64,000 bases of DNA from Thermoplasmata archaeon (GTDB lineage Archaea; Thermoplasmatota; Thermoplasmata; Methanomassiliicoccales; Methanomethylophilaceae), in assembly GCA_015063225.1 (NCBI GenBank), contig SUSU01000003.1, positions 1-64,000 on the forward strand. Direction: 5' to 3'. Positions 3,166 through 22,023 of this stretch are shown one piece after another. Position 1 is the first letter of the stretch. Each line of letters starts with the position of its first letter. Below the pieces are notes generated by a model. It was given only the letters and a program-made list of their open reading frames with translations. It was not told the DNA's origin and made no database searches. Both the position numbers and the translations under genes were made by a program.

Positions 3166-3906
3166 ATGGATGAAATCGCAAGATATCTGCGTCTAGAGAC
3201 ACCTGCCGTGGCCGTTTTCAGGACCGACAGCATTCCCGAGGGAGCGTTCGTTCCCAGCAAGGGATGCAGCATTCCCGGTCTTTTCGTCAGGTGTGCCAGA
3301 TTAGGAGATGTCTGCGCCGCCGATAGGGAACACATCTTCTGCCACGGTGCACTCAGCGGTTTCGGTTTCGGCGGGATCCCGGACAGGGAGCATTCATCCT
3401 GGGCCGCCTCCGACGTCCCCGAGGACAGGAAGGGCGAGATGAAGCACGGCGGGAAGAGGCATTTCGCCTCTCCGGAGATCGCCACCCTCCAGCTCAACAA
3501 CATCAAGGATTACGGCGACGGGAGCGGAGCCATAGTCTTCAAGAGGCTCGATGACGCCCTTGCGGCGGGTGACCCGATCGAGGTCGTGGTCTATCTTGCG
3601 GATCCGTCCCGCATCTCCGCGCTCGCACAGCTCGCGGGTTTCTCCAGGGATGCATCCGACCCCGCGGTCGTCATGCCCTACGGGCATGCCTGCCAGCACA
3701 TCTACGCTATCCCCCGTGCGGAGGGCGAGAGCGAACATCCCCGCGCGGTGCTCGGCATGACCGACATGTATGCGAGGAGGTTCGTCAGGCCCGACGAGAT
3801 GACCTTTGCGGTGCCCTTCGGCCTCTACAAGAGGATGGCCGGGGACGCACCCAAGTCCTTCCTCGCGATGGATAAGTGGGAAGAGACGCTCGATAAGTGT
3901 CTCTGA
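3166..3906 (+). CDS. DUF169 family protein
   Basis: A 246-residue cytosolic protein resembling DUF169 (COG2043), a family common in methanogens and other anaerobes and without an established reaction. Supporting features are the N-terminal TPAVAV and GCSIPG segments, a scatter of conserved-looking cysteines (positions about 36-65) and the central HFASPEIAT. Cysteine richness in the N-terminal half suggests a metal or Fe-S site (inference). It stands alone between a convergent/divergent surface gene and a minus-strand tRNA-Thr. No promoter oddities are seen. Confidence 0.7.
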   Translation: MDEIARYLRLETPAVAVFRTDSIPEGAFVPSKGCSIPGLFVRCARLGDVCAADREHIFCHGALSGFGFGGIPDREHSSWAASDVPEDRKGEMKHGGKRHFASPEIATLQLNNIKDYGDGSGAIVFKRLDDALAAGDPIEVVVYLADPSRISALAQLAGFSRDASDPAVVMPYGHACQHIYAIPRAEGESEHPRAVLGMTDMYARRFVRPDEMTFAVPFGLYKRMAGDAPKSFLAMDKWEETLDKCL

Positions 3907-3955
3907 GAACGGACGGCGTATCCGCCGTACCTGAAGAATGCGATGAAGATATGAG

Positions 3956-8665: not shown

Positions 8666-8704
8666 CAGGTCCCCTTTTTTATAACTCAAAAGAGATTGAA
8701 TGGT

Positions 8705-10288
8705 GTGAGGTCCCTCATTCTCCTGCCCGTCCTGATGGCGATGGCACTCATCGTCCTCGTCCCCTCCTCGTCCGCGGAAGACGATCCGTCCGAGGATTCC
8801 GATGCCGGCATCGCGTTCGACGTGGACGGGGTCACCTATTACGTCGAGGACGGCGAGGCCTACGTCTCATCGTACTACGACGACGACCCCGTCAAGGACC
8901 TCGTCATCCCGGAATCGGTCGAACATCTCGGGAAGACCTATCCCGTCGTGGGCCTGTACATGCTGTCCATAATGGCGGACGGCCTCGAGACCGTGACCCT
9001 CCCGTCGACCATAGTGGATTACAACATCGGGGCCGTCTCCTCGTCGACGGTCACGGCCATCAACATCGATTCCCCGCGGTACGTGTCGGTGGACGGGGCG
9101 GTCTACACCAAGGACAAGTCCGTGCTCATCCAGTATCCGCGTGGGAAGGCGGACGCCGTGTTCAACGTGGAACCGGACGTCAAGATCGTGGAGGACAGCG
9201 CCGTCAGCAGCAACGAGCATCTGGTGACGCTCAACCTCCCCTCGACGGTCTACTGCATCAACAACGCTGCGTTCTACGGGTGCACCGCCCTGGAACACGT
9301 GAACAGCCAGGCGCCGGATTCCCTGCCCGAGATGCTGGTCATCGTCGGGGACAGTGCGTTCGACGAATGTCCCAAACTCAAGAGCCTCGCCCTCCCGTTC
9401 AAACTGAAATCCATAGGGGAGTACGCCTTCGCGAGCACTGGTCTGGAGACGGTGGACATCCCCTATTCCGTGGCCACGTTGGGTGTGGGGGCCTTCAGCA
9501 ACTGCACGAGCCTGAAGGCGTTCACTAGTAGCAATTCGGTTTTCATGGAGGACGGGGGCGTCCTGTACGAGTGCCGCGAGAACTACAAGGCGGTAGCATG
9601 TTACCCCGCCGGGCGCGACGGGGAATCGTTCATCATCCCCTCCGACGTCGTGTCCATATCGCACATGGCCTTCCGCGGATGCGTCAACCTCAAGCACGTG
9701 GAACTCCCGGCCAAGATGACCGAGGTCCCGGAACTGGCATTCACGGACTGTACATCCCTCGAGACCGTGAAATTCCCCGATTCCATCGTCTCGATAGGCA
9801 TGTTGGCCTTCCAGGGCTGCAGCAATTTGAGGGACGTCGTGATCCCGGCGAGGGTCGGGGTCCTCGGCGTCAACGCGTTCTCCGGGACCGCGATCACGTC
9901 GGTGACCGTCCCGGCATCCGTATACTACATGGAGTACGGGGTGTTCTCCAACTGCAAATCCCTGAAGAGCGTGCTGGTTGAGGAGGGGAGCCTGGAGATG
10001 GAGACCATGGTGTTCTTCGGTTGCCTGGCTCTCGAGACAGTGGAGTTCGCGGGGACGGACGTCACGTTCGGGGAGAGCAGCCTCTCGGCGGGCACAGAGG
10101 ACAACAAGGTCACCCTGAGGGTGATCGTCCCCAAGGGGCTGTCCGTCCCGTCCACGGCGGCGGACCAGAACACGACCCTCAACGTCGAGGTCAAGGGCGA
10201 ACGCCCGTACCCGTACGAGAACTTCATCGGCGTGGCGATATGCATCGCCGTGATCCTCCTGATCGTATACGCAGTGAGGGAGGTGTGA
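8705..10288 (+). CDS. BspA-type leucine-rich-repeat surface protein
   Basis: A 527-residue secreted protein with an N-terminal signal sequence (VRSLILLPVLMAMALIVL), an acidic linker, then many LRR_5/BspA (Treponema-type) repeats from about 60 to 480, recognisable as IPESVEHLG, AFSNCTSLK, FRGCVNLKHVELP and LAFQGCSNLRDVVIP. It ends in a membrane anchor (VAICIAVILLIVYAV). Such proteins mediate adhesion and are expanded in gut microbes. Start: GTG 8705 is 25 bases after TATA 8677-8683, and TTG 8696 is an alternative. It is the first gene of an operon, with the ABC permease ATG one base after its TGA, so export or surface assembly may be linked (inference). Confidence 0.85.
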   Translation: MRSLILLPVLMAMALIVLVPSSSAEDDPSEDSDAGIAFDVDGVTYYVEDGEAYVSSYYDDDPVKDLVIPESVEHLGKTYPVVGLYMLSIMADGLETVTLPSTIVDYNIGAVSSSTVTAINIDSPRYVSVDGAVYTKDKSVLIQYPRGKADAVFNVEPDVKIVEDSAVSSNEHLVTLNLPSTVYCINNAAFYGCTALEHVNSQAPDSLPEMLVIVGDSAFDECPKLKSLALPFKLKSIGEYAFASTGLETVDIPYSVATLGVGAFSNCTSLKAFTSSNSVFMEDGGVLYECRENYKAVACYPAGRDGESFIIPSDVVSISHMAFRGCVNLKHVELPAKMTEVPELAFTDCTSLETVKFPDSIVSIGMLAFQGCSNLRDVVIPARVGVLGVNAFSGTAITSVTVPASVYYMEYGVFSNCKSLKSVLVEEGSLEMETMVFFGCLALETVEFAGTDVTFGESSLSAGTEDNKVTLRVIVPKGLSVPSTAADQNTTLNVEVKGERPYPYENFIGVAICIAVILLIVYAVREV

Positions 10289-10289
10289 C

Positions 10290-11081
10290 ATGAATCTGAT
10301 AAAACGCATGGCCAAGAGCGCGAGGGATGTGTACGACAACCGTACCATCCTGATGGCGATGGTCCGCAGGAACACCGCCGGACGCTACAAGAGCAGTTAC
10401 ATCGGGTTCGCCTGGCACCTCATCCTGCCCGTGCTGATGATCATCGTGCTCTACATCACGTTCACCTCCATCAAGCCCCGTCTGGAGCCCGATTTCTGGA
10501 TTTACCTGTCATCGGGTATGTTCCCTATCATGTTCATATCCTCGAGTCTGAGGGGGAGGGCGGTGCTGTCCAATGCGAAGTATATCACCAAGATGAAGTT
10601 CCCGAGGGAGATTGTCGTTATAGCATCCGTGCTCACCGATTTCCTCGCCGTGGTGTTCGCATACGTGTTCATCATCATGGTCATCCTCCTCTCCGGACAG
10701 TACGTCAACTGGTTCGGTATGGCGATGATCCCCGTGGGTCTCCTGCTGATGTTCGTGTTCTGCGTGGGATGCTCCATGCTGGTCTCCACGGTCACCGTGT
10801 TCGTGAAGGACATAGGTTACTTCATGAGCGTCGCCATGAGGCTGGTGTTCTGGATCACCCCCACCTTCTTCTTCGTCAACGAGGCCAAGGGCCTGCTGAA
10901 AGCAATAGTCTGGTACAATCCCTTCACCTACTACGTGGAGATATTCCACGACGTCCTCTACTACGGTATATTCCCCCATGTGGAGTACATCGCGGTGGCG
11001 GTGCTGCTCACCGTCGCGTTCACGTTTATCGGTTCGGCCGTGTTCTTCCGCTATGAGAAGAAATTCCCGGAGATGCTGTGA
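10290..11081 (+). CDS. ABC-2 type permease of a polysaccharide/teichoic-acid-like exporter
   Basis: A 263-residue integral membrane protein with six predicted helices, of the TagG/Wzm/RfbA-like ABC-2 family. The N-terminal amphipathic stretch (VRRNTAGRYKSSYIGFAWHLILP) and the late YNPFTYYVEIFHDVLYYG are typical of O-antigen and wall-polymer exporters. Substrates in relatives are lipid-linked glycans, and here the substrate is unknown. It sits between the leucine-rich surface protein and its ATPase. Its TGA overlaps the ATPase ATG by one base, so the pair is tightly coupled. Confidence 0.88.
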   Translation: MNLIKRMAKSARDVYDNRTILMAMVRRNTAGRYKSSYIGFAWHLILPVLMIIVLYITFTSIKPRLEPDFWIYLSSGMFPIMFISSSLRGRAVLSNAKYITKMKFPREIVVIASVLTDFLAVVFAYVFIIMVILLSGQYVNWFGMAMIPVGLLLMFVFCVGCSMLVSTVTVFVKDIGYFMSVAMRLVFWITPTFFFVNEAKGLLKAIVWYNPFTYYVEIFHDVLYYGIFPHVEYIAVAVLLTVAFTFIGSAVFFRYEKKFPEML

Positions 11082-13072
11082 TGGAAGAGGACGTCGTCAT
11101 CAGGATCAGGGGTCTGAAGAAGGCCTATAGGATCACCGACCCCTCGCTGCCCGGTGGCCGGTTCTCCAAGAAGTATGCCGAGTACCCGATATTCGACGGT
11201 ATCGACCTGGATGTGAGGAAGGGCGACATCGTCGGGATCCTGGGGAAGAACGGCTGCGGGAAATCGACGTTCCTCAAACTCGTATCCGGGATCCTCGAGC
11301 CGGATTCCGGTACGATCGAGGTCGAAGGCAAGGTCGCCAGCATCCTCGAGCTGAGCATGGGTTTCCACGGGGATCTGTCCGGGAGGGACAACATCGTCCT
11401 CCGCAGCGAGCTCTACGGCATCCCCCGTTCCGAGGCGTACGCGAACCTCGACAGGATCATCGAGTATTCCGACCTCGGCGTGTTCATCGACAACCCCGTG
11501 AGGACGTACTCCTCCGGTATGAGGTCCCGTCTCGCGTTCTCCGTCATGGTCAACGTGGATGCTGACATATTCCTCGTCGATGAGGCGCTCAGTACCGGCG
11601 ACATGGCGTTCGCCGCAAAGGCGTCCGAGCATCTCAGGGATCTGGTCCGCAAGGGCAAGACAGTACTGTTCACGTCCCACAGCCTCGGCACCATCAAACG
11701 TACATGCACCAGGGCCATCTGGCTCGATGATCACAAGATAGCCATGGACGGCCCCGCAGAGGACGTGTGCGACGCCTATTCCCACGCCATCATGGATTCC
11801 TTCGAGGACACCCTTTCCATGGCGGAGGGCGGGGCATCCTCCGCACAGTACCGCCTCTCCACGTTCTACCGCGACGGCAACGGCACCGAGAGGGATCCCG
11901 AGGCCAGGATGAAATGGCTGAACGAGGCCGCCGTGAGGGAGCATCCCATGGCCATGTCCGAGCTCGCCGACATCCTCATGGCGTCCGATGACGAGGAGGA
12001 CAGGGCCAGGGCCCTCGACCTCTACCAGGGTGCCGCCGAACAGGGCAACTTCGAGGCCCGCCGCAAGTACTCCACCATGTTCGGTGACACCCACGGCGAC
12101 ATCGAGGATCTCCGTACCCTCCTCAGGGAACTTGCGGAGACGGGTTATCCTTACGACCTCTACAACTGCGGGAACATGCTCTACCGTTCCGCCCTCAGCA
12201 TCGAGGATTACCGCGAGGCGTTCCGTTATGTGAAACAGGCATCCGACCTCGGATGGGCGGACGCCGATTATCTCCTCGGCGTGATGTACCGCGAGGGGAC
12301 CGGTGTCGACAGGGACATCGACGAATCCGTGAGGCTGATGGAACGTGCCGCGGATACGGGTCACTCGAGGGCCATGACGGTCCTCGCGGAGCAGTATCTC
12401 CAGGGTAAGTACGTCCCGCGCGACCCCGAGAAGGCCTTCAGGTTCTACATGATGTCCGCATCCTCCGGGAACGCCCGTTCCCAGTATCAGGTGGCGACTA
12501 TGTACTCCTCCGGGCTGGGGTGCGAGAAGGACCCCGAGAAGGCCAAGGAGTGGTTCGCACGCTATTCGAGCACCACCGTGAACGAGTTCCGTAAGGAAGC
12601 CTTGGATACGATCCGCACCCGCCGCCTGGAGTCCGACAGTTATCCGGACCTGATGAAGGCGGCATCTCTCACATGCAATCCCCAGTCCATGGTGACCCTA
12701 GCCTCCCGTTACCTGTCCGGGAAGGGCGGTTTCAAGAAGAACCCCGGTGCCGCCGCGCGCCTCCTCGAAAGGGCCTCCGTCGCCGGAGGTTCTCCGAGGA
12801 CCCGTTTGGCGATGCTGTACCTCGAAGGGGACGGCGTGCCCAAGGACGAGGCCCGCGCCTTCGAGCTCCTGCAGTCGGCCGCGGCGTTCGGTGACGCCGA
12901 GGGTATGTTCCGTTTATCATTACTCTATAAGGAAGGTAAGGGATGCGAAGCGGATCCCGAGATGTACCGCGTGCTCGTGAAGATGGCGGCCGAACGCGGG
13001 AACCGCGATGCGAAGGACCTGATTATGCGTTGGGATGAGCGTAATCAGCGCAGAAAAGCCAAAAAACATTGA
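11081..13072 (+). CDS. ABC exporter ATPase fused to Sel1-like repeats
   Basis: A 663-residue fusion. Residues 1-235 form a Wzt/TagH-type ATPase: Walker A GKNGCGKST (55-63), signature YSSGMRSRL (143-151), Walker B ADIFLVDEA (161-169), switch His TSHS (198-201). Residues 250-650 are Sel1-like (TPR-like) repeats, for example LGVMYREGTGVDRDIDESVR and LAMLYLEGDGVPKDEARAF. Relatives usually carry a carbohydrate-binding domain or nothing at this position, so a protein-binding helical solenoid is unusual. It could tether a regulator or a partner glycosyltransferase (inference). The start ATG overlaps the permease stop (TGATG). It ends in TGA followed by a T-run and a short hairpin. A lone GTG one codon upstream is an alternative. 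Confidence 0.9.
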   Translation: MEEDVVIRIRGLKKAYRITDPSLPGGRFSKKYAEYPIFDGIDLDVRKGDIVGILGKNGCGKSTFLKLVSGILEPDSGTIEVEGKVASILELSMGFHGDLSGRDNIVLRSELYGIPRSEAYANLDRIIEYSDLGVFIDNPVRTYSSGMRSRLAFSVMVNVDADIFLVDEALSTGDMAFAAKASEHLRDLVRKGKTVLFTSHSLGTIKRTCTRAIWLDDHKIAMDGPAEDVCDAYSHAIMDSFEDTLSMAEGGASSAQYRLSTFYRDGNGTERDPEARMKWLNEAAVREHPMAMSELADILMASDDEEDRARALDLYQGAAEQGNFEARRKYSTMFGDTHGDIEDLRTLLRELAETGYPYDLYNCGNMLYRSALSIEDYREAFRYVKQASDLGWADADYLLGVMYREGTGVDRDIDESVRLMERAADTGHSRAMTVLAEQYLQGKYVPRDPEKAFRFYMMSASSGNARSQYQVATMYSSGLGCEKDPEKAKEWFARYSSTTVNEFRKEALDTIRTRRLESDSYPDLMKAASLTCNPQSMVTLASRYLSGKGGFKKNPGAAARLLERASVAGGSPRTRLAMLYLEGDGVPKDEARAFELLQSAAAFGDAEGMFRLSLLYKEGKGCEADPEMYRVLVKMAAERGNRDAKDLIMRWDERNQRRKAKKH

Positions 13073-13100
13073 TTTTTTTGTGTTGACTACTCAACATTTA
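13073..13100 (+). terminator. Probable terminator of the surface/ABC operon
   Basis: A run of seven T residues directly follows the stop codon. Next comes a small GTTGA-CTAC-TCAAC hairpin. It separates the operon from the RNA locus downstream. Confidence 0.45.
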
Positions 13101-13116
13101 TTACAAATACCGAAAA

Positions 13117-13128
13117 ATGTAAATACTT
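13117..13128 (+). promoter_or_regulatory. TATA-like promoter of the 1.2-kb RNA locus
   Basis: An AT-rich block preceding the GC-rich RNA region contains ATGTAAATACTT. Archaeal spacing would start transcription near 13145-13152. A second candidate, TTTATTAC, lies at about 13097-13104. Confidence 0.45.
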
Positions 13129-13898
13129 AGCACGCTAATGTTTACTTTCGCCAAGCATCAACGTGATTCCCAACAAGGAGTTGTGTCGACCGTTGGCCTG
13201 AAAAGGCCTTTGGAGACTTGGGGCGTGGGATCAGACCGGTTCCGCGTCAAAACGCAACACATCCTGCCCCCACAGCCTTCGGGTTGTGGCGCACGTAGCC
13301 GAGGCCCCTAGGCCCGGTGCGTGGGGTGCTGATGGCGTGAGTCGTCAGCCACGTAGTGTCCCTCTGTAAAAGTAGGACAGGTCGCGGGTCGCATGGTTCG
13401 CGGTCGATTGTGTTACCATCACCTGTGCAGATCGGGTCGCCCCCTCTCGGGGAATCCGGAATCTGTGCGCCAGCAGCGTGCTCGCCGCGATGGCAGTCCG
13501 GCAAGCATGAGCGCCAAAGCGATTGCACCCTGGGGTGCAGTCGCGCCGTAGCGTGTCCTGAAAAGGACGTACGGGCTCCGTCCGTACGTTGGTCAGCAGC
13601 TCCGCAAGGAGAAGAGATCAGCCCGCCCCGCTGGTCGGGTCGTATGCGTCTCGCATACGGCCTTTGAGGTGCAGGAAGCCAAAGCTTCCTGGAGCAGTGT
13701 CGCAGCGTCGTTCGCAGTCAGTCGTTGACCGGGTCTCCGGCTTCGGCTGTCCGACGAGATCCGTAAGCGGTCGGAAGAACCGCCCGAAAGGGTCCGGTGT
13801 CCGTCCGAGCGGGTCCGCCCGCGGTGGTTCGCCTGAGGCGGCCGGGAAACTGGTCGACTGACGGGAACTGCCAGGGTGGTCGCAGAGGTGGTCGTGAG

Positions 13899-14044
13899 CT
13901 CCCCTCCTAATGGGGAGAACTCTCCATCAAGTGGAGAACAGCCTTCCTCCAATGGGGGAAAAGATCCGGCCGTCCGAAGAGACCTCCCGGGTGTCCGCCA
14001 GCAAAGGTCGCGGAAGCTCCCCTCCTAATGGGGGAAAAGATCCG
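13899..14044 (+). repeat. Repeated C-rich/G-rich hairpin module inside the RNA locus
   Basis: Four consecutive small hairpins lie at 13899-13917, 13921-13937, 13944-13960 and 14017-14035. The first and last share the 17 bases CTCCCCTCCTAATGGGG. The third and fourth share the 18 bases AATGGGGGAAAAGATCCG, exact copies at 13951-13968 and 14027-14044. Confidence 0.75.
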
Positions 14045-14342
14045 CCCGGCCCGGTGGAGGGTCCTCGGTTCATCCGGGGACGTCGACGCTGTAGTAGCGT
14101 CAGAGCGTCAAGCTCAAGCGCCGCGTGCAGCCACTGAGTAATCAGTCCTGCAGACGAAGACAGCGCGGAAGTCCGTGTGAGTGTCGGCCAAAAGCCGTCT
14201 CAATCGCCGGAGCGCGCGACAAGATTGCCCCAAACCGACCCTCCCCTCGGGGAGCGGTCTGGCGAGAGCGGAATCCTGTCAGAATGTCCTGCCGTGGTGG
14301 TGGGGGTCATCCCCGTCGCGTTCGTACCCCACATCGGGGGTT

Positions 14343-14375
14343 CCCCGGCATCCGCCGGGGACAACACCTTTTTTT
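14343..14375 (+). terminator. Terminator of the 1.2-kb RNA locus
   Basis: A perfect 7-bp stem CCCCGGC/GCCGGGG with loop ATCC is followed by ACAACACC and seven T residues. It faces the convergent cobN gene. Confidence 0.7.
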
Positions 14376-14402
14376 CCAGCTTTGATTATCTTACGGTACG
14401 CT

Positions 14403-17400
14403 TCAGTCCGTCCTCGCGGTCTTCCCGTCCATCATGGTCCTGACGGATTCCATGACCTTCCCGTTGGATTCCTTCCAGGCCTCGACGTCCGCGTATGATG
14501 CGATCTCCGTGGAGCTCCCCTGGTATTCGCCGTCGCCGGCTATGCCCTCAAGGTCGCCCTCGAACATGAGGTAGTTGTTCTTGAGCTTCTCCAGCACCTC
14601 GGGGTCCGCTTTCCAGAATCCCCTCTCGGCGGCCTCGAGCAGCCTGCGGGCGAGTTCCTCTCCGGCGAACGGGTTGTTCTGCCTGAAGAACTCCCTCATC
14701 TCCGGATCGTTGACGAAGGTCCTGGCTATATCGTCGAAGATACGGTCGTCGACGGCATCCGTGGTGGCACCGTACCCGTAGACCCTTCCGGAACGTTTCA
14801 TGATCTCGGCGGCCCCCTGGTATCCCGCGGCCTTCATGCCCTCGATCCACTGCGGGTTGAGGAGCCTGCCCTTGGTGACCCTGCGGATCTCGTCCTTGAG
14901 GGTGTGGACACCGGCGGCTCCCGAGACGCGGGTGTCGCCGAAGTAGGATTTGACGTTCTTCCCGGTGATTATCTTGGAGGCGATGGCCATGCCGCCGATG
15001 TTCCCGAAGAACCCGGGGCTTCCGAGGATGTCGTACTCGTCGGTCCCAATCTTGGTGTATGACAGGGAGGTCGTGGAGAGGGAGTTCATGAACTGCCTGT
15101 GCAGCGGTTTCCCGTTGCGGTTGTTCCCGTACGCGTATCCGTTGGTCGCCACGTAGATGTCGGCGAGGTCGCGTTCGGTCTTCCAGGCGTTGGCGTAGAT
15201 TGCCAGCGGAACCCCTGATGTGGCGGACCCGGGAGCGGAACAGAAGATCCTCGCGGTGGCGTCGTCCGAGGGTATCCCGTCGGCCATGGATGCGAGGGTG
15301 TGCTTCTTCACGAAGTTGGACTCGGGGGGTTCGTCGAGGGCCGAGACGGCGATGACGGCGTTGTCCAGGAGGTCGAGGCATGCGGGGAACGTCTCCATCA
15401 GTATCCCCGAGCTGCGGACGGTCACGTCGATCCTCGGTCTTCCGAGCTCCTCCAGGGGGATTATCTCGAAGGATTCCACCTGCCCTCCCTTGCCCCAGAC
15501 GGGTTTCGTGCCGAGGAGGTACATCATCTGGGACATCATCTCTCCGCCGTCGTTCATGAGGTCGGAGGACATCCAGAAGAGGGATATGGTCTCGGGCATC
15601 TCGCCCGTGTCCTGCCTGTATCTCTCGATGGTCTTGTCGGCGAGTATCACACCGGTGCGCCACGAGGTCTTGGTGGGTATCCCGCGGGGGTCGATGCTGA
15701 ACGTGTTCCTCCCGGTGGGGAGGACGTCCTCGCGTCCCTGGGTGAGGAGTCCGCAGGGCCCGGGAGGGGTGAAACCCCCGCCGAGCGCGTGGATGAACGC
15801 CCCGATCTCATCGGATGCGTCTATCTTCTGGGAGATGGAGAGTATGCGCTCCTCCACCAGCGGGCCCAGGAGGCAGCTCCCGCCGGAGAGGACGGATTCG
15901 ACCATGGCGAGGCATCCGTCGTAGATGTCCGAGACCACCATTGGGTTTGGCCTTCCGGTGACTGGCTCAATGCCGTCGGGCTCGGTCAGGCACTTGGTGT
16001 AATCGATGCCCTTGGAGGAGGCGTAGGCCTTGCAGACCGACTTCTCGCCAGCGGCGATAATCGACGTGACGAGGGTGGCCTTCTTGCGGAGGTCTGGGGT
16101 CTCGCCCATGATGTGCAGTCCGATCTGGACGTGGGTGTTGGTAAGGCGGGAGTATTCCTCGGTGCAGAGCTTCAGGGTCTCCTGGAGGGTCTTCCCCTCG
16201 AGGTCGGAGGCGTCCATGCCCACCGCGATACCCGCTTCCCTGAGGATCTTGTGGAACTCCTCGGCGCGGAGGGGGTCGTTCTTCGCGGAATCGTACTGCT
16301 CGAGGGCGACGCGGAGATCCTCTATCGGACCGTAGGCCTTGACCCTCTCGATGGCCGGGGGCATGTGGTCTATGAGCGTGGCGTAACCCCTCCTCTTCGC
16401 CAGGGTGGCCGCGGGGGGTCCGCCGGCGTCGAAGATGTAGAGGTGGGGCATGGTGCCGATGCAGATGTCGGGGTAGCAGTCGGCGGTGAGTCCGGTCCCC
16501 TTCCCCGGGAGGTACTCCATGTTGCCGTGCATGCCCGTGTGGACTATCGCGTCCACCTTGAATATCGAATCGAGCCAGTGGTAGGTCGCGAGGTACTGGT
16601 GGGTGGGTGGGCAGACGGGGTCGTGCAGGATCCTGCAGACCGTTCCGTCACACTTCGGGCCGTAGCATCCGCGTTTCGGCTGGACGAGCATGAGGACGTT
16701 GCCGAACCTCACGCCGGAGATGAGTATCTGTCCGTCGCGGACCATGGATTCGCCCGGAGGCTCCCCCCATACGCGGATGACGTCCTCCCTGACCTTGTCC
16801 GAGAGGGTGTCGAACCATCCCCTGTACTCGGCGTTGCTCATATGGTAGAGCACTCCGCCGCACCTCTCGATCTCGGAGGAGTCGGTCCACCTGAAATCGG
16901 ACATGGCCTTGTGGGAGAGGATGTAGTCCATTATGCCCTTCCCTGTATCGGGGGCGTCGACGGTGTATCCCTCCTCCTTCAACCTCCTCAGGATGTTGGC
17001 GAGGCTGTCCATGACGTTCAGGTTGTGGGCCTCCCCGACGTTGGCGTCGGCGTTGGCGCACGGGTAGTTGTTGAGGATGAACGCGACCTTCTTGTCGCGG
17101 TTGGGCTTGTTCCTGAGCTCGATCCTCCTGATGACGCGGTCCACCAGGTGGTCAGCCCTCTCGGGGATGAGCGTGCGGTGGGCGTCGGACTCGTTCTCCT
17201 GTCTGGCGAAACCGATGAGGATGGGCTCGATGGTACCCTCGAACTCCTGGAAGGTGATCGCGAAGGAGATGTCCCTCTTGAGGCCGGGGGACTCCTCGAA
17301 GGTCTTCCTCGACATGGACGAGGGGACCACGGGCTGGAAGACGGGGACGTCGAGGCTGCGCAGGAAATCGGTGTCCTTTCCGTACTCGGAGGGGGTCCCG

Positions 17401-18149
17401 AACCCGAGCACGGTGCATTTCACCAGTGCGGAAGGGAGGAACTTCCCGTCCTTGAACATGTACTTCCCGACCGTGTCGGCGATGCCGAGCATCCCCTGTT
17501 CCTTGTCGGTGTGGCCGTCGCCGTAGACGAGGATGACGTTGTACCCCCTCTTCTCGAAACGTTCGAAGAGTCCGTACTCCACATCGGTGTTGTCGTTGTT
17601 CCACTGGGCGCGGGATGCGATGATCCCTATCCACGGGGCATCCTTCACCTTGTAATCCCGGAGGTAATCCTCTATGGAATCGTACCTCTCCCCGCTGGGG
17701 TGGATGATGCCGTGCCAAGGCAGAGATATGGGGGCGGGGACCTCGACGTCGCGTCCGAGGAAGGTCCTCATGAGATACAGGAGGCACCCTTTGCAGTTCG
17801 CCCTCCCATTCAGTCCCAGGTACTCCTGGCACCTAATGGCGGCCTCCTTCGGGCCGGTGGTGTAGATGTAGTTGATGGCATCATGTCCCATGGAGAGGAC
17901 GGGGACGCTGTCGGGCAGTCTCTTCACGATCCTCTCGACGGGTTCGAGGAGGTCGGTGCCCATCATGTGCAGGAGGACGACCGCGGATTCCCGCATGTCC
18001 TTCTCGATCCTGTCGATGAGGGAGGGGTCTTCGAAGATCATCATGCGGGTGAACGGCACGACCTCGATGTCGAGCTCTTTGGCCGCGTCCCTCAGCGATT
18101 TGGCGTAGCTGTCCCACACGAGAGCGGTTATCTTAGGTATTGATTCCAT
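14403..18149 (-). CDS. cobN: CobN/BchH-type metal chelatase large subunit (divergent copy)
   Basis: A 1248-residue cytosolic CobN/magnesium-chelatase subunit H family protein, normal full length. The family inserts Co into corrinoid rings (or Mg into porphyrin). Corrinoids are essential to methylotrophic methanogens. The central motif, around residue 535, reads HTGMHGNMEYLPGK, where canonical CobN has H-x-G-T-H-G-x-x-E-W-L-P-G-K, so this copy is the divergent one. It follows the second cobN by 10 bases in the same operon, and its stop faces the RNA locus. It may serve another metal or tetrapyrrole (inference). No ChlI/ChlD or CobST gene is in the window. Confidence 0.9.
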   Translation of the reverse strand: MESIPKITALVWDSYAKSLRDAAKELDIEVVPFTRMMIFEDPSLIDRIEKDMRESAVVLLHMMGTDLLEPVERIVKRLPDSVPVLSMGHDAINYIYTTGPKEAAIRCQEYLGLNGRANCKGCLLYLMRTFLGRDVEVPAPISLPWHGIIHPSGERYDSIEDYLRDYKVKDAPWIGIIASRAQWNNDNTDVEYGLFERFEKRGYNVILVYGDGHTDKEQGMLGIADTVGKYMFKDGKFLPSALVKCTVLGFGTPSEYGKDTDFLRSLDVPVFQPVVPSSMSRKTFEESPGLKRDISFAITFQEFEGTIEPILIGFARQENESDAHRTLIPERADHLVDRVIRRIELRNKPNRDKKVAFILNNYPCANADANVGEAHNLNVMDSLANILRRLKEEGYTVDAPDTGKGIMDYILSHKAMSDFRWTDSSEIERCGGVLYHMSNAEYRGWFDTLSDKVREDVIRVWGEPPGESMVRDGQILISGVRFGNVLMLVQPKRGCYGPKCDGTVCRILHDPVCPPTHQYLATYHWLDSIFKVDAIVHTGMHGNMEYLPGKGTGLTADCYPDICIGTMPHLYIFDAGGPPAATLAKRRGYATLIDHMPPAIERVKAYGPIEDLRVALEQYDSAKNDPLRAEEFHKILREAGIAVGMDASDLEGKTLQETLKLCTEEYSRLTNTHVQIGLHIMGETPDLRKKATLVTSIIAAGEKSVCKAYASSKGIDYTKCLTEPDGIEPVTGRPNPMVVSDIYDGCLAMVESVLSGGSCLLGPLVEERILSISQKIDASDEIGAFIHALGGGFTPPGPCGLLTQGREDVLPTGRNTFSIDPRGIPTKTSWRTGVILADKTIERYRQDTGEMPETISLFWMSSDLMNDGGEMMSQMMYLLGTKPVWGKGGQVESFEIIPLEELGRPRIDVTVRSSGILMETFPACLDLLDNAVIAVSALDEPPESNFVKKHTLASMADGIPSDDATARIFCSAPGSATSGVPLAIYANAWKTERDLADIYVATNGYAYGNNRNGKPLHRQFMNSLSTTSLSYTKIGTDEYDILGSPGFFGNIGGMAIASKIITGKNVKSYFGDTRVSGAAGVHTLKDEIRRVTKGRLLNPQWIEGMKAAGYQGAAEIMKRSGRVYGYGATTDAVDDRIFDDIARTFVNDPEMREFFRQNNPFAGEELARRLLEAAERGFWKADPEVLEKLKNNYLMFEGDLEGIAGDGEYQGSSTEIASYADVEAWKESNGKVMESVRTMMDGKTARTD

Positions 18150-18159
18150 GAGAATTGCC

Positions 18160-21100
18160 TCAGCGGTCGGTAATCTCCTCGATCCTTGCTTCCGTTTCGA
18201 TGTACAGTTCTTTCAGTTTATCTTTATAATCGTCGGTGGCGTCCCACAGGCCCCTCTCGATGGCTTCCTGCAAGCGGTTGAGGATGTTCATCATGGCGTA
18301 GGGGTTCACGTTCTTCATCCATTCCTGCGTGTCCTTGTCGAAGAGGTACTTGTCCGCGAGCCCCTCGTACATCCAATCCTCTCCGATGCCCGAGGTGGCA
18401 TCCCACGCCATGGTGAACTCCACCACGTTGGCGAGTTCGGCGGCGCCGCGGTAGCCGTGCTCCTTCAGGCCGTTGATGAACTTGGGGTTGAGCGCCTTGC
18501 TGCGCACGGTGAAGCGCAGTTCCTCCTGGGTGGAACGGATCTTGCTCTTCTTGGGGTCGGAATCGTCGCCCATGTAGGTGACGGCGTCCTTCCTCCCGTA
18601 GGTCCTGACGAAGGAGTTCATCCCTCCCAGGAACTCGTAGTAGTCGTCGCAGTCCAGGATGTCTATCTCCCTGTCCGCGATGTTCTTCACGGTGACGGCG
18701 ACCTTGGAGAACCTGCGGCAGAACTCCTCGGTCATCTTGGTCCCGTATTCCCCCTTGGCGTATCCGTTGGAGCACCAGTCGCGGTAGATGTTCGCGAGGT
18801 CCTCCACGGTCTCCCACGCGCTGGAGGATATCGCATGGTTCACCCCGGCGCCGTACGCACCGGGCGGTGCGCCGAAGAGTCTGACGGAGTTCCTCCTGCG
18901 CGCCTCGTCGGGGGTGAGGCCTGCCGCTATCCCCTCGACTATGTCCTTCCTGAGGTTGGCGGCGATGGCGTTGTCCTCGTCGTCCTCGTCCAGGTCCATG
19001 ACCATCTTGACTGCGTCGTCGATGAGGTCGATGAGGTTCGGGAAGGTGTCCCTGAACAGTCCGGTGATGTTGACGGTGACGTCCACGCGGGGTCTCCCGA
19101 GCTCCTTGACGGGGATGACTTCGAGCCCGAGGACCTGTCCGCCGGTCCTGCTCCAGATGGGTCTGAGGCCCATGAGCCAGAGGATGTATGCGACGTCATC
19201 CCCGCCGGTCTTCATGGTGTCGGTGGCCCATATCACGAACCCTATCTCGCGGGGGAATCCGCCGTGCTCGTTGGCGTATTTCTCGATCATCTGGTCGGCC
19301 ATGCGCTTCCCGATCTCCCACGAGGACTTCGAGGGCACGAGCGAGGGGTCGAGGGAGTACATGTTCCTCCCAGTGGGCAGGATGTCGGCGTTCCCTCTGG
19401 TGGGTGCGCCGGAGGGTCCGGGGAGCACGAACTCCCCGTTGATGCCGTCGAAGAGGTGGTCCATCTCGTCGGCCATCCTTTTGATTTTCACGGAAACGCT
19501 GTTGCAGGTGTACTCCACGGATTCGCGAAGCTCGTCGGAGACCTTCCCGTAATCTTTCCTTATCTTCTCCACCGAACGTTCCGCGTCGAAACCGTCCTCC
19601 CTCATCCACTGGATGAAGGCCATGAGCTCCCTGTCGATGCGGTCGATCTCCTCGGAGTTCAGTTTCCCGTCGGCGGTGGTCCCGGAGACGTCGTCCACCG
19701 CGTGCACCATGTCGAATCCCTGGTTGGCGGCGAAGGCGTCCCTGAGGGATCTCACGTCGCCGTTGTCCAGTCTCGTCAGTGAGTACACCATCTCGTCGAA
19801 GTGAAGTCTCTCGGGCACCTTCCCGAGGATGTGGAGGTTGGCCCTGATGAGTGCATCCTTCATTTCCTCGATGTACTCGTGCAGTTCCACGATGTAGGGG
19901 CCGAACCCTTCCGGCCCGGGGTCGTTCTCGGGGGTTATCCCGAGGTCGTTGAGCATATCGTTCTTCCTGGCGGCCTCGTAGATCTGCCTGGTCATCTCTG
20001 CAAGCCTCTCCTCGGATGCGCCGCCCTTGTTCTTCAGGTAGTTCTGTATCTGGACGTTGACCTCGTCTAGTTCGTCATAGGAGTCCGCTCTCGCCATCGA
20101 GGGCGTCATGTGGCCGATGACCACGCTCTCGATGCGCCTCTTGGTCTGCATGGCCTCGCCGGGGTCGTCGATGATGTAGGGGTAGAGGTTCGGGATCCCG
20201 TCGAGCACGACGCAGGGCTCGCACTTCCTGGACATACCGACGTTCTTACCGGGCAGCCACTCGATGGTCCCGTGTGTCCCGGTGTGGATGATCATGTCCG
20301 CCTTGAACACATCCCTGAGCCATCTGTAGAAGCCGAGGTACTGGTGCTGGGGGAACAGGAGGGGGTCGTGGATGTTCTGCGCGAACTTCTCCGCCCTCCC
20401 GCGAAGGGGCTGGTAACCGACGTAGATGTTCCCTTTGACCAATCCCGGGATGACCATATCGTCGCCGTCGGTGCACAGTGTGCCAGGAGGTTCTCCCCAG
20501 TCCTTTATCTTCATCTCCTGGTTCCATTCCGGGATGGATTCGAAGTGTCCGACGTAGTCCTTCTTGGACATCATGTCGGCGGCGTGCTCCCTCATGTATT
20601 CCGCGGGGAGGTTGTCGAGGTCGTTGGTGACGTTGTCGAGGATCTCCTTCACCAGTGCCTCGCCGTTCTCGGGCACGTTGGTGACGGTGTAGCCTTCGTC
20701 CCTGAACCTCTTCAGCTCGTTGGCGATGGTCTCCATGGTGTCGAGTCCCGCCGCGCCTCCGATGTTCCCGGAGTTGGCCACGGACTGCCACATGAGAATG
20801 GCCACCTTCCTGTCCTTCTTGGGGGTGGACCTGAGCTTTCCCCATCCGTAGGCCACGCGGCAGAGGTGCTCGATCCTGTCGGGGATGGGTAAGGACCTCC
20901 TGTTGCCCTTGGTGCGGGGGCGGTACGCGATGGGGACGGTGATGATGTCGCCATTCAGTTCAGGGTACGTGACATTGGCCTCCATGTCGTTCTTCGAGAG
21001 GCCGATCCTGTCGTCCTCGAAATCGTGGTAGTCGCCGGCGACGGTGAGGCCGAAGACGATGGGGACGTTCAGGCAGTCGCGGAAGTAGTTGGTCTCCTCC

Positions 21101-21894
21101 ACTCCGGTGAAGCTGTAGGTGGATGAACGCGAGAAGGACACGAGGGACACTGCGACATCGATTATCGGTACGCCCTCAGGACGGAAGTATTGGTCGAGGA
21201 TCCTCTTCAGCCCCTCGTACCCGTCGTCGCTGAAGTTGGAGAAGAACACGGGGATGGTGCTCATCCCGTGGGCTTCCAAAGCACGGATGACTGCGGCCAC
21301 GTGGTCGGTGTCCTTGTAGACGTCTATGTATCCCGGTATCACGACCCCCGCACGCACCCTCCTCTGCGGGAGGGTCTTCATGTACTCCTCGACGGTGATG
21401 TCGTCGGGGAAATCGGGGTGGAAGATGCCGTGCTCCCTCCTCGGGACGGGCGCAGGGGGGAGGGTGTCGGTGAGCTTCAGCATGTGGGCGGCGTACCATA
21501 ACGTGGAGATGTCGTTCTCTGTTCCCTTGGCGTCGGAGTAGCTGAAGAGGGTCTTGAAGTCCTCGTTGCTCCCCTTGTAGAGGTCCTTGACGAGTGACAT
21601 CACCTCTGGTGTCCCGGCGTGGATGTAGACGAGTGCGGAGGATTTCCTCAGGGTGTCGATGTACTTGTCGAACTTCAGGAAGCGGTACGGGTCCCCCATG
21701 ATGCGGACATATACGAAATTCGCATCCGCGGTCTTGCGGACCAGGTTACCGTACAGGAGGACGTCGTCGTTGACGTCCTCGCAGTTGACGCCGAAGACAT
21801 CTACATCAATCCCTATGCGTTTGCTCAGTTCGGCGCCTGCCTTCTCCAACAACTGAGCATCCACATGCCTTATCGAAACATAGACTACTTTCAT
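18160..21894 (-). CDS. cobN: CobN-type cobaltochelatase large subunit (canonical copy)
   Basis: A 1244-residue CobN with the canonical core HTGTHGTIEWLPGK near residue 535, followed by YPYIIDDPGEAMQTKRR and the late SYAWE-region equivalents. It is the likely cobaltochelatase large subunit for corrinoid synthesis. ATG 21894 (MKVVYVSIRHVD) is preferred over the ATG 33 bases upstream because a TATA box (21918-21926) lies about 28 bases before it, so the message is leaderless. It is the first gene of the two-gene cobN operon, and both products are full length and intact. Tandem paralogs suggest division of labour between metals or ring substrates (inference). Confidence 0.92.
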   Translation of the reverse strand: MKVVYVSIRHVDAQLLEKAGAELSKRIGIDVDVFGVNCEDVNDDVLLYGNLVRKTADANFVYVRIMGDPYRFLKFDKYIDTLRKSSALVYIHAGTPEVMSLVKDLYKGSNEDFKTLFSYSDAKGTENDISTLWYAAHMLKLTDTLPPAPVPRREHGIFHPDFPDDITVEEYMKTLPQRRVRAGVVIPGYIDVYKDTDHVAAVIRALEAHGMSTIPVFFSNFSDDGYEGLKRILDQYFRPEGVPIIDVAVSLVSFSRSSTYSFTGVEETNYFRDCLNVPIVFGLTVAGDYHDFEDDRIGLSKNDMEANVTYPELNGDIITVPIAYRPRTKGNRRSLPIPDRIEHLCRVAYGWGKLRSTPKKDRKVAILMWQSVANSGNIGGAAGLDTMETIANELKRFRDEGYTVTNVPENGEALVKEILDNVTNDLDNLPAEYMREHAADMMSKKDYVGHFESIPEWNQEMKIKDWGEPPGTLCTDGDDMVIPGLVKGNIYVGYQPLRGRAEKFAQNIHDPLLFPQHQYLGFYRWLRDVFKADMIIHTGTHGTIEWLPGKNVGMSRKCEPCVVLDGIPNLYPYIIDDPGEAMQTKRRIESVVIGHMTPSMARADSYDELDEVNVQIQNYLKNKGGASEERLAEMTRQIYEAARKNDMLNDLGITPENDPGPEGFGPYIVELHEYIEEMKDALIRANLHILGKVPERLHFDEMVYSLTRLDNGDVRSLRDAFAANQGFDMVHAVDDVSGTTADGKLNSEEIDRIDRELMAFIQWMREDGFDAERSVEKIRKDYGKVSDELRESVEYTCNSVSVKIKRMADEMDHLFDGINGEFVLPGPSGAPTRGNADILPTGRNMYSLDPSLVPSKSSWEIGKRMADQMIEKYANEHGGFPREIGFVIWATDTMKTGGDDVAYILWLMGLRPIWSRTGGQVLGLEVIPVKELGRPRVDVTVNITGLFRDTFPNLIDLIDDAVKMVMDLDEDDEDNAIAANLRKDIVEGIAAGLTPDEARRRNSVRLFGAPPGAYGAGVNHAISSSAWETVEDLANIYRDWCSNGYAKGEYGTKMTEEFCRRFSKVAVTVKNIADREIDILDCDDYYEFLGGMNSFVRTYGRKDAVTYMGDDSDPKKSKIRSTQEELRFTVRSKALNPKFINGLKEHGYRGAAELANVVEFTMAWDATSGIGEDWMYEGLADKYLFDKDTQEWMKNVNPYAMMNILNRLQEAIERGLWDATDDYKDKLKELYIETEARIEEITDR

Positions 21895-22023
21895 CCCGAC
21901 CGCCCCGATGTCTATCGGATAATACATCCAAATGTAATACGACTAATAATTGTTGTCGTGGGGGTCTGAGAAATAATGGTCTGAAAACACATTTATCGCG
22001 CGGTTCGATGGCGTACCGATAAG

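Follow-up and report, generated by a model that had tools for sequence, protein, structure and literature searches.

A gene-free locus between an export operon and cobN

The window, that is the whole stretch of DNA analysed here (64,000 nucleotides, from the genome labelled G000, of a methanogenic archaeon of gut or rumen), contains one long interval, positions 13149–14376, in which no gene could be recognised. GC content hardly varies with codon phase in this interval (a spread of 0.05, versus 0.39–0.47 in the flanking genes), a Pfam search of the ORFs within it gave no match, and it is the longest stretch of the 64 kb without coding signal. The original prediction had placed a giant structured RNA at 13148–14376, in more than 1 kb devoid of a credible gene, and its bounds are right within a few bases, the conserved 5′ end starting at 13149 and a terminal T run ending at 14375. 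That the interval is a degenerate gene or unassembled junk rests only on this absence of a gene; it is already contradicted by the lack of codon periodicity and of Pfam matches, and by the covarying homologs found in other species (see below), and can for practical purposes be set aside.

Upstream lies an ABC-transporter ATPase fused to Sel1 repeats (11078–13072, + strand; PF00005, PF08238), itself preceded by an ABC-2 exporter membrane protein. Downstream, a gene for a CobN/Mg-chelatase family protein (14403–18149, − strand; PF02514) converges on the interval; neither flanking gene is part of the RNA. The Pfam assignments back the export operon and the cobN gene that were originally named as neighbours. 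Some features of this neighbourhood can be recorded independently of the RNA. The joining of an ABC ATPase to an extended array of Sel1 repeats is an unusual combination, with relatives at ∼40% identity in seven other genomes of the genus, and a BspA-type leucine-rich repeat protein is encoded immediately upstream of the ABC-2 exporter (8696–10288). Two full-length CobN/Mg-chelatase genes stand side by side (14403–21927, − strand), and at least four CobN-like matches are present in the window genome.

Predicted fold of the window RNA

Hairpins of at least seven pairs number 14 on the + strand of 13149–14376 and eight on the − strand, for an expectation of 3.3 ± 1.7 (maximum 9) derived from 200 dinucleotide shuffles, and no other 1.2-kb stretch of the window exceeds this count. 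The series of more than a dozen hairpins noticed by eye in the original prediction therefore stands well above chance, and the loops listed there are present in the sequence: the RNA contains TTCG, GTGA, GTAA and GAAA loops, as well as two stems closed by a TGAAAA loop, at 13195 and 13553. Folding z-scores in 200-nt segments reach −6.3 on the + strand, and the Stouffer z for the whole RNA is −5.9 on the + strand versus −3.1 on the − strand; these whole-RNA values were built from the segments, not from shuffles of the entire RNA, whose minimum free energy is ∼ −601 kcal/mol.

Most of this RNA consists of a variable body (13226–14341, + strand) made of a series of hairpins, for example at 13270, 13328, 13519, 13553, 13566, 13637, 13672 and 14061. 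It includes an internal 67-nt duplication, 73% identical, and two blocks that share the direct repeats D1 and D2: block A (13897–13975, + strand) carries hairpins with UCCUAAU, AUCAA and CCAAU loops, and block B (14015–14051, + strand) is a second copy of block A elements. The fold of 13226–14341 is a prediction resting on thermodynamics only, since the body has no alignable homolog and is thus without covariation support.

A dispersed family with a narrow distribution

A blastn search of 102 genomes of the same taxonomic family retrieved a single real relative, in the genome G088, through 41 bases of the 5′ end; this copy lies within ∼1 kb devoid of genes, 5′ of a tRNA-Lys. A covariance model of the 5′ end built from these two sequences (model R1) matched in G027 (RGIG3602), a goat-rumen Methanomethylophilaceae MAG, in G090 (SIG4; two matches) and in G097. 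Scanning the genomes of 84,980 species for the exact pattern gave two more G027 contigs, with the motif credible only in Methanomethylophilaceae. Model R2 brought the total to 16 copies, all of which were confirmed by model R3, whose single extra match, in G103, falls in coding sequence. The copies are found in 6 of the 147 genomes of the order (E-values down to 1e-15), all Methanomethylophilaceae: seven in G027, four in G090, two in G097, and one each in G088, G120 and G000, the last being that of the window. Among 400 genomes sampled from the class, no further credible copy was identified, and the one other weak match, in G110, reads as coding. This makes for a narrow, patchy distribution.

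A number of candidates were rejected. Covariance-model or pattern matches in G099, G103, G110, an Elusimicrobia contig, a Planctomycetia contig and one IMG/VR contig are weak, and lie in ORFs where this was checked. Within the taxonomic family, blastn also gave many short matches; those inspected (G001, G081, L009, L010, L012, L023, L027 and L029) fall inside coding sequence or next to it and are attributable to chance, the exception being a terminator-like look-alike at L005.

The next gene is convergent to the RNA in about half of the copies (the window, G027a, G027b, G027d, G097a, G097b and G090d) and co-oriented in the others. Since the orientation varies, and many copies are convergent, the RNA is not a cis-acting leader or riboswitch. 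Copies G027b, G090d and G097b adjoin PAPS-reductase genes, and G027e and G090b lie in one neighbourhood. As a separate observation, at four loci (L081, L077, L078 and L074) a copy stands beside genes for PUA-domain and/or PAPS-reductase-domain proteins, the products of which carry a zinc-ribbon-like, Cys-rich segment at the N-terminus. At three of these four loci, the RNA is convergent to a PAPS-reductase gene.

Such a scattered distribution, with one to seven copies at different loci in only 6 of 147 genomes, is what a selfish or satellite RNA element might produce, its head and promoter being duplicated in trans to other genomic sites, for example by a reverse transcriptase, and its tails consisting of captured or duplicated host sequence. 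Copies G027d and G027g share both promoter and head, and the RNA is absent at the 3′ side of cobN in G006. In addition, each of the multi-copy carriers (G027, G090, G097) has three reverse-transcriptase matches, and the single-copy carriers (G000, G088, G120) have none. However, this correlation is loose: reverse transcriptases are common, and the non-carrier G110 has four matches. Several copies occupy shared loci (the PAPS-reductase genes, and the neighbourhood of G027e and G090b), which suggests that those were inherited, and the bodies keep their folds (see below), unlike dead cargo. No match to the window RNA was obtained by blastn against phages and plasmids, and strict-pattern scans of viral contigs found none. 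I consider this origin rather unlikely, without dismissing it.

Promoter and probable transcript end

Upstream of the window RNA, a putative TATA box, TGTAAATA (13118–13125, + strand), lies 33 nt 5′ of the first stem of the head, P1. In all 16 copies, TATA-like 8-mers cluster between −29 and −33 relative to P1, in upstream sequences that are mostly unrelated. This fixed distance is the strongest evidence in the present analysis that each copy is an independent transcription unit, and supports the originally proposed promoter far better than one sequence could. Archaeal promoters have a usual spacing between TATA box and transcription start, and from this spacing the RNA is inferred to begin 2–5 nt before P1. 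Transcription of the window RNA is nonetheless an inference, for which there is promoter evidence only and no expression data.

At the other end, a hairpin formed by UCCCCGGC and GCCGGGGA around an AUCC loop is followed by CAACACC and seven T (14342–14375, + strand), and probably marks the transcript end, as judged from its sequence and the hairpin listing. The stem and the T7 originally described are present, but a strict terminator scan did not report this hairpin; the T run begins 7 nt past the stem. One terminator-like look-alike of this hairpin was identified at locus L005, where it is located after a gene.

The conserved head is a three-way junction

The only conserved part of the family is its first ∼75 nt, which in the window correspond to 13149–13225 (+ strand) and form a three-way junction, as defined by models R1–R3 and by an alignment of 16 sequences (hereafter referred to as A6). 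Its first stem, P1, pairs CCAA with UUGG (13151–13154/13218–13221, + strand). The second, P2 (13165–13170/13177–13182, + strand), can be extended by an AC/GU pairing. The third, P3, starts with GUC/GAC (13185–13187/13215–13217, + strand), continues with CC/GG, and ends in an inner stem (13195–13199/13204–13208). All 16 copies conform to the same consensus, in which CCAA, a short linker, P2, GUCGACC, the P3 hairpin, GGAGAC and UUGG follow each other. Compensated changes in P1 occur in two copies; the outer part of P3 is invariant and includes a GA/A internal loop, and its inner stem changes freely.

In A6, 92.9% of the 311 cells pair, and in 14 pairs both partners have changed. Doubly changed cells number 44, for 16 ± 3.4 in shuffles (0/500 reaching the observed value); all other measures also gave 0/500, except pair types (4/500). 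The covariation score is 0.366, and does not exceed 0.092 when partners are slid by 1–3 columns. A6 was fitted to the structure, whereas two other analyses were not. Firstly, 3′ halves of stems were swapped between copies and refolded without aligning the stems, and the swapped versions were as stable in 0/1000 trials for P2, and 0/1000 for P3. Secondly, P3 was recovered without guidance by MAFFT and RNAalifold. The covariation proposed in the original prediction as a check is accordingly found for the head under several kinds of control (column slides, shuffles and half-swaps).

The P2 result depends on the GU of the GUCGACC segment: with it included, the swap test gives the 0/1000 above, and without it the test is not significant (102/1000). 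This GU (columns 41–42 of A6) is able to pair, in most copies, either into P2 (AC..GU) or into P3 (GU..AC). Because P2 is significant only when the GU is included, P2 and P3 may compete for it, and the junction could then switch or branch-migrate. This is an observation, and no switch has been demonstrated.

Variable bodies that keep their folds

Beyond the head, the bodies range from ∼170 nt (G027d) to more than 1.2 kb, and mostly cannot be aligned between copies. Several grow by internal repetition, as that of the window does: a 215-nt repeat in G088, a 38-nt element in four copies in G090a, and repeats of ∼150 nt in G090c. Those pairs of bodies that can be aligned keep their fold. The consensus energy z-score is −8.4 for G027b and G027c, and −7.5 for G090d and G097b; the latter pair has six compensatory pairs, for 2.6 expected (5/200). 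For G027d and G027g there are five, for 1.4 expected (0/200), in an alignment that includes the head. Pairwise covariation of the body was not significant between G090a and G027b/c, nor among internal repeats. Bodies that are not otherwise related have certain loops in common: ACCAC is found in five copies, and a UUCGACU T-loop in four.

Internal repeats and palindromes could also be explained without any RNA function, as a DNA-level palindrome array (REP/BIME-like, or a recombination site), and in several copies the − strand folds nearly as stably. However, a promoter at a fixed distance argues against such an array, as does the conservation of single-stranded junction nucleotides (the GA/A of P3). 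A bias towards the + strand, measured above for the window in both hairpin count and folding z, is also found in G090c, G090d and G097b. An array of this kind is accordingly very improbable.

Some bodies contain tRNA-like modules

A tRNA is called inside the RNAs of G027a and G090c, by both Aragorn and Rfam, and of G120, by Rfam only. T-arm-like ends are visible in a further four copies, G097a, G027e, G090a and G090b. The window copy has no tRNA-like module, and most other copies are likewise without a program-called unit. The most elaborate case is G090c (L076, ∼3404–3948, − strand), where three tRNA-Cys(GCA)-like units occur in one RNA, in the same body as the ∼150-nt repeats. These units are nearly identical in their D and T arms and in the anticodon (GCA) arm. 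Their acceptor stems are three different ones, each internally complementary, AU-rich and imperfect, and the units lack a 3′ CCA.

One explanation is that the RNA gives rise to small RNAs or odd tRNAs, being cut by RNase P and tRNase Z into tRNA-like products, in agreement with the calls in G027a, G090c and G120. I regard this as improbable: most copies, including that of the window, have no program-called unit to release, the acceptor stems of G090c are mismatched and AU-rich without 3′ CCA, the unit of G120 has an apparent 5-nt anticodon loop, and the G090 genome possesses an ordinary GC-rich tRNA-Cys elsewhere. The simplest reading, which remains an inference, is that the tRNA fold serves here as a building block or a mimic, and not for translation.

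Relation to known RNAs

A cmscan search against Rfam gave no match apart from chance, either in the window at the gathering threshold or in 13060–14400 at E ≤ 10. The models for OLE, RNase P, SRP and group I and II introns are unmatched in the window, and those for GOLLD and ROOL are unmatched both there and in the homolog loci (at the gathering threshold for the latter), in agreement with the original prediction, which saw no specific similarity to OLE, GOLLD or ROOL and no RNase P, SRP or intron core. The family is also not described in the literature on structured or large RNAs of this clade, as far as open-licence papers are concerned. The window RNA is a member of a new, undescribed family of structured archaeal RNAs, and I place high confidence in this conclusion. 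An undescribed large archaeal RNA was originally inferred from the one sequence, and the proposal is borne out by the 16 copies in six genomes that a search for homologs yielded, by the covarying head, and by the absence of an Rfam match and of a protein frame, with the transcript itself still undemonstrated. What could not be seen from that sequence is that the family is dispersed, that only its first ∼75 nt are conserved, and that the tails of other copies hold tRNA-like modules.

GOLLD, ROOL and OLE are giant ornate RNAs from bacteria and phages, whose functions are poorly understood (PMC12286853). ROOL is large, highly structured, found in rumen communities and often near tRNAs, and its function is unknown; the linker of GOLLD is reported to contain tRNAs in some cases (PMC12286853). 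These two are the nearest analogues in kind, although neither model matches and the arrangement is not the same. Like the new family, GOLLD is very large, ornate and stand-alone, with one conserved and one variable region able to hold tRNAs (PMC12286853); it is however bacterial or phage-borne with a conserved 3′ region and a variable 5′ one, whereas the archaeal RNA has a ∼75-nt 5′ three-way junction, in 1–7 copies per genome. ROOL is borne by phages or prophages, while in the new family the copies have different bodies and were not seen in a phage context. OLE, too, is a large structured RNA that stands on its own and has a conserved junctional architecture, but it belongs to extremophilic bacteria, and its model gave no match. 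The new family thus works like these ornate large RNAs at most, and is a member of none of them.

Two further comparisons concern the tRNA-like modules. YrlA and Y RNAs combine a protein-binding end with tRNA-like modules that are not tRNAs, and are bound by Ro. The junction of the new family is different, many copies are far longer, and no Ro protein (TROVE, PF05731) was found in any of 15 genomes, which include all six carriers, so that Ro is rejected as a partner. Tandem arrays of tRNA genes resemble those copies with several tRNA-like folds in a row, but here the units have divergent, imperfect acceptor stems, and are enclosed in one promoter-head-terminator unit, and most copies are without them.

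The analogy with GOLLD and ROOL raises the possibility of an assembly of RNA alone, namely self-association through the head or the loops into a homo-oligomer or cage like those of ROOL and GOLLD, with the variable body inside. The gross plan is that of GOLLD, one conserved domain and a fast-changing region that possibly holds tRNAs (PMC12286853), and the abundance of closed hairpins, with GNRA loops and repeated ones, would suit such an assembly. The GOLLD and ROOL models are nonetheless unmatched, and the conserved part, only ∼75 nt, is far below the size of their conserved domains. I see this as a possibility, albeit an unlikely one.

A proposed scaffold mechanism

The reading I favour, with a probability of about 0.5, is that of a stand-alone family of modular structured RNAs, in which the head is a handle and the body a scaffold or sponge. 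The structure, the promoter at a fixed distance, the common head and the modular bodies with their duplications are established by the analysis; transcription, partner and function are all inferred. RNA polymerase would start 2–5 nt before P1 at the RNA's own TATA promoter. The constant head would then be a common handle that binds one shared partner, either a protein or another copy of itself, and the body would be a scaffold or sponge, displaying many modules at once. Such a body grows by internal duplication of self-folding modules, namely hairpins and, in several copies, tRNA-like folds; stems would drift with compensation, allowing each module to fold alone, while some loops and tRNA-like shapes recur. 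The tRNA-like modules would hold tRNA-binding factors as mimics, and not take part in translation. No partner protein was found, and Ro/TROVE is absent. Taken alone, the scaffold or sponge mechanism is inferred and remains tentative, and the present data do not separate it from an assembly of RNA alone or from a selfish element.

A broader proposal, and a speculative one that I would not rely on at present, is that the family represents the first archaeal class of giant RNAs with a head and an evolvable tail, the constant head recruiting a dedicated partner and the self-folding modules of a tail that diversifies rapidly, some of them tRNA mimics, giving each copy its own binding repertoire. 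If true, no RNA family described so far would resemble such a modular scaffold system.

The family also illustrates that large RNA genes can escape sequence search, a blastn of more than one hundred related genomes having retrieved one real relative through a few tens of bases. Structure determination and pull-downs are feasible for a head of this size, and the several copies of one genome are natural variants. With its very small constant domain and widely differing bodies, some of which contain tRNA mimics, this multi-copy family of archaea provides an independent system for asking what giant RNAs do.
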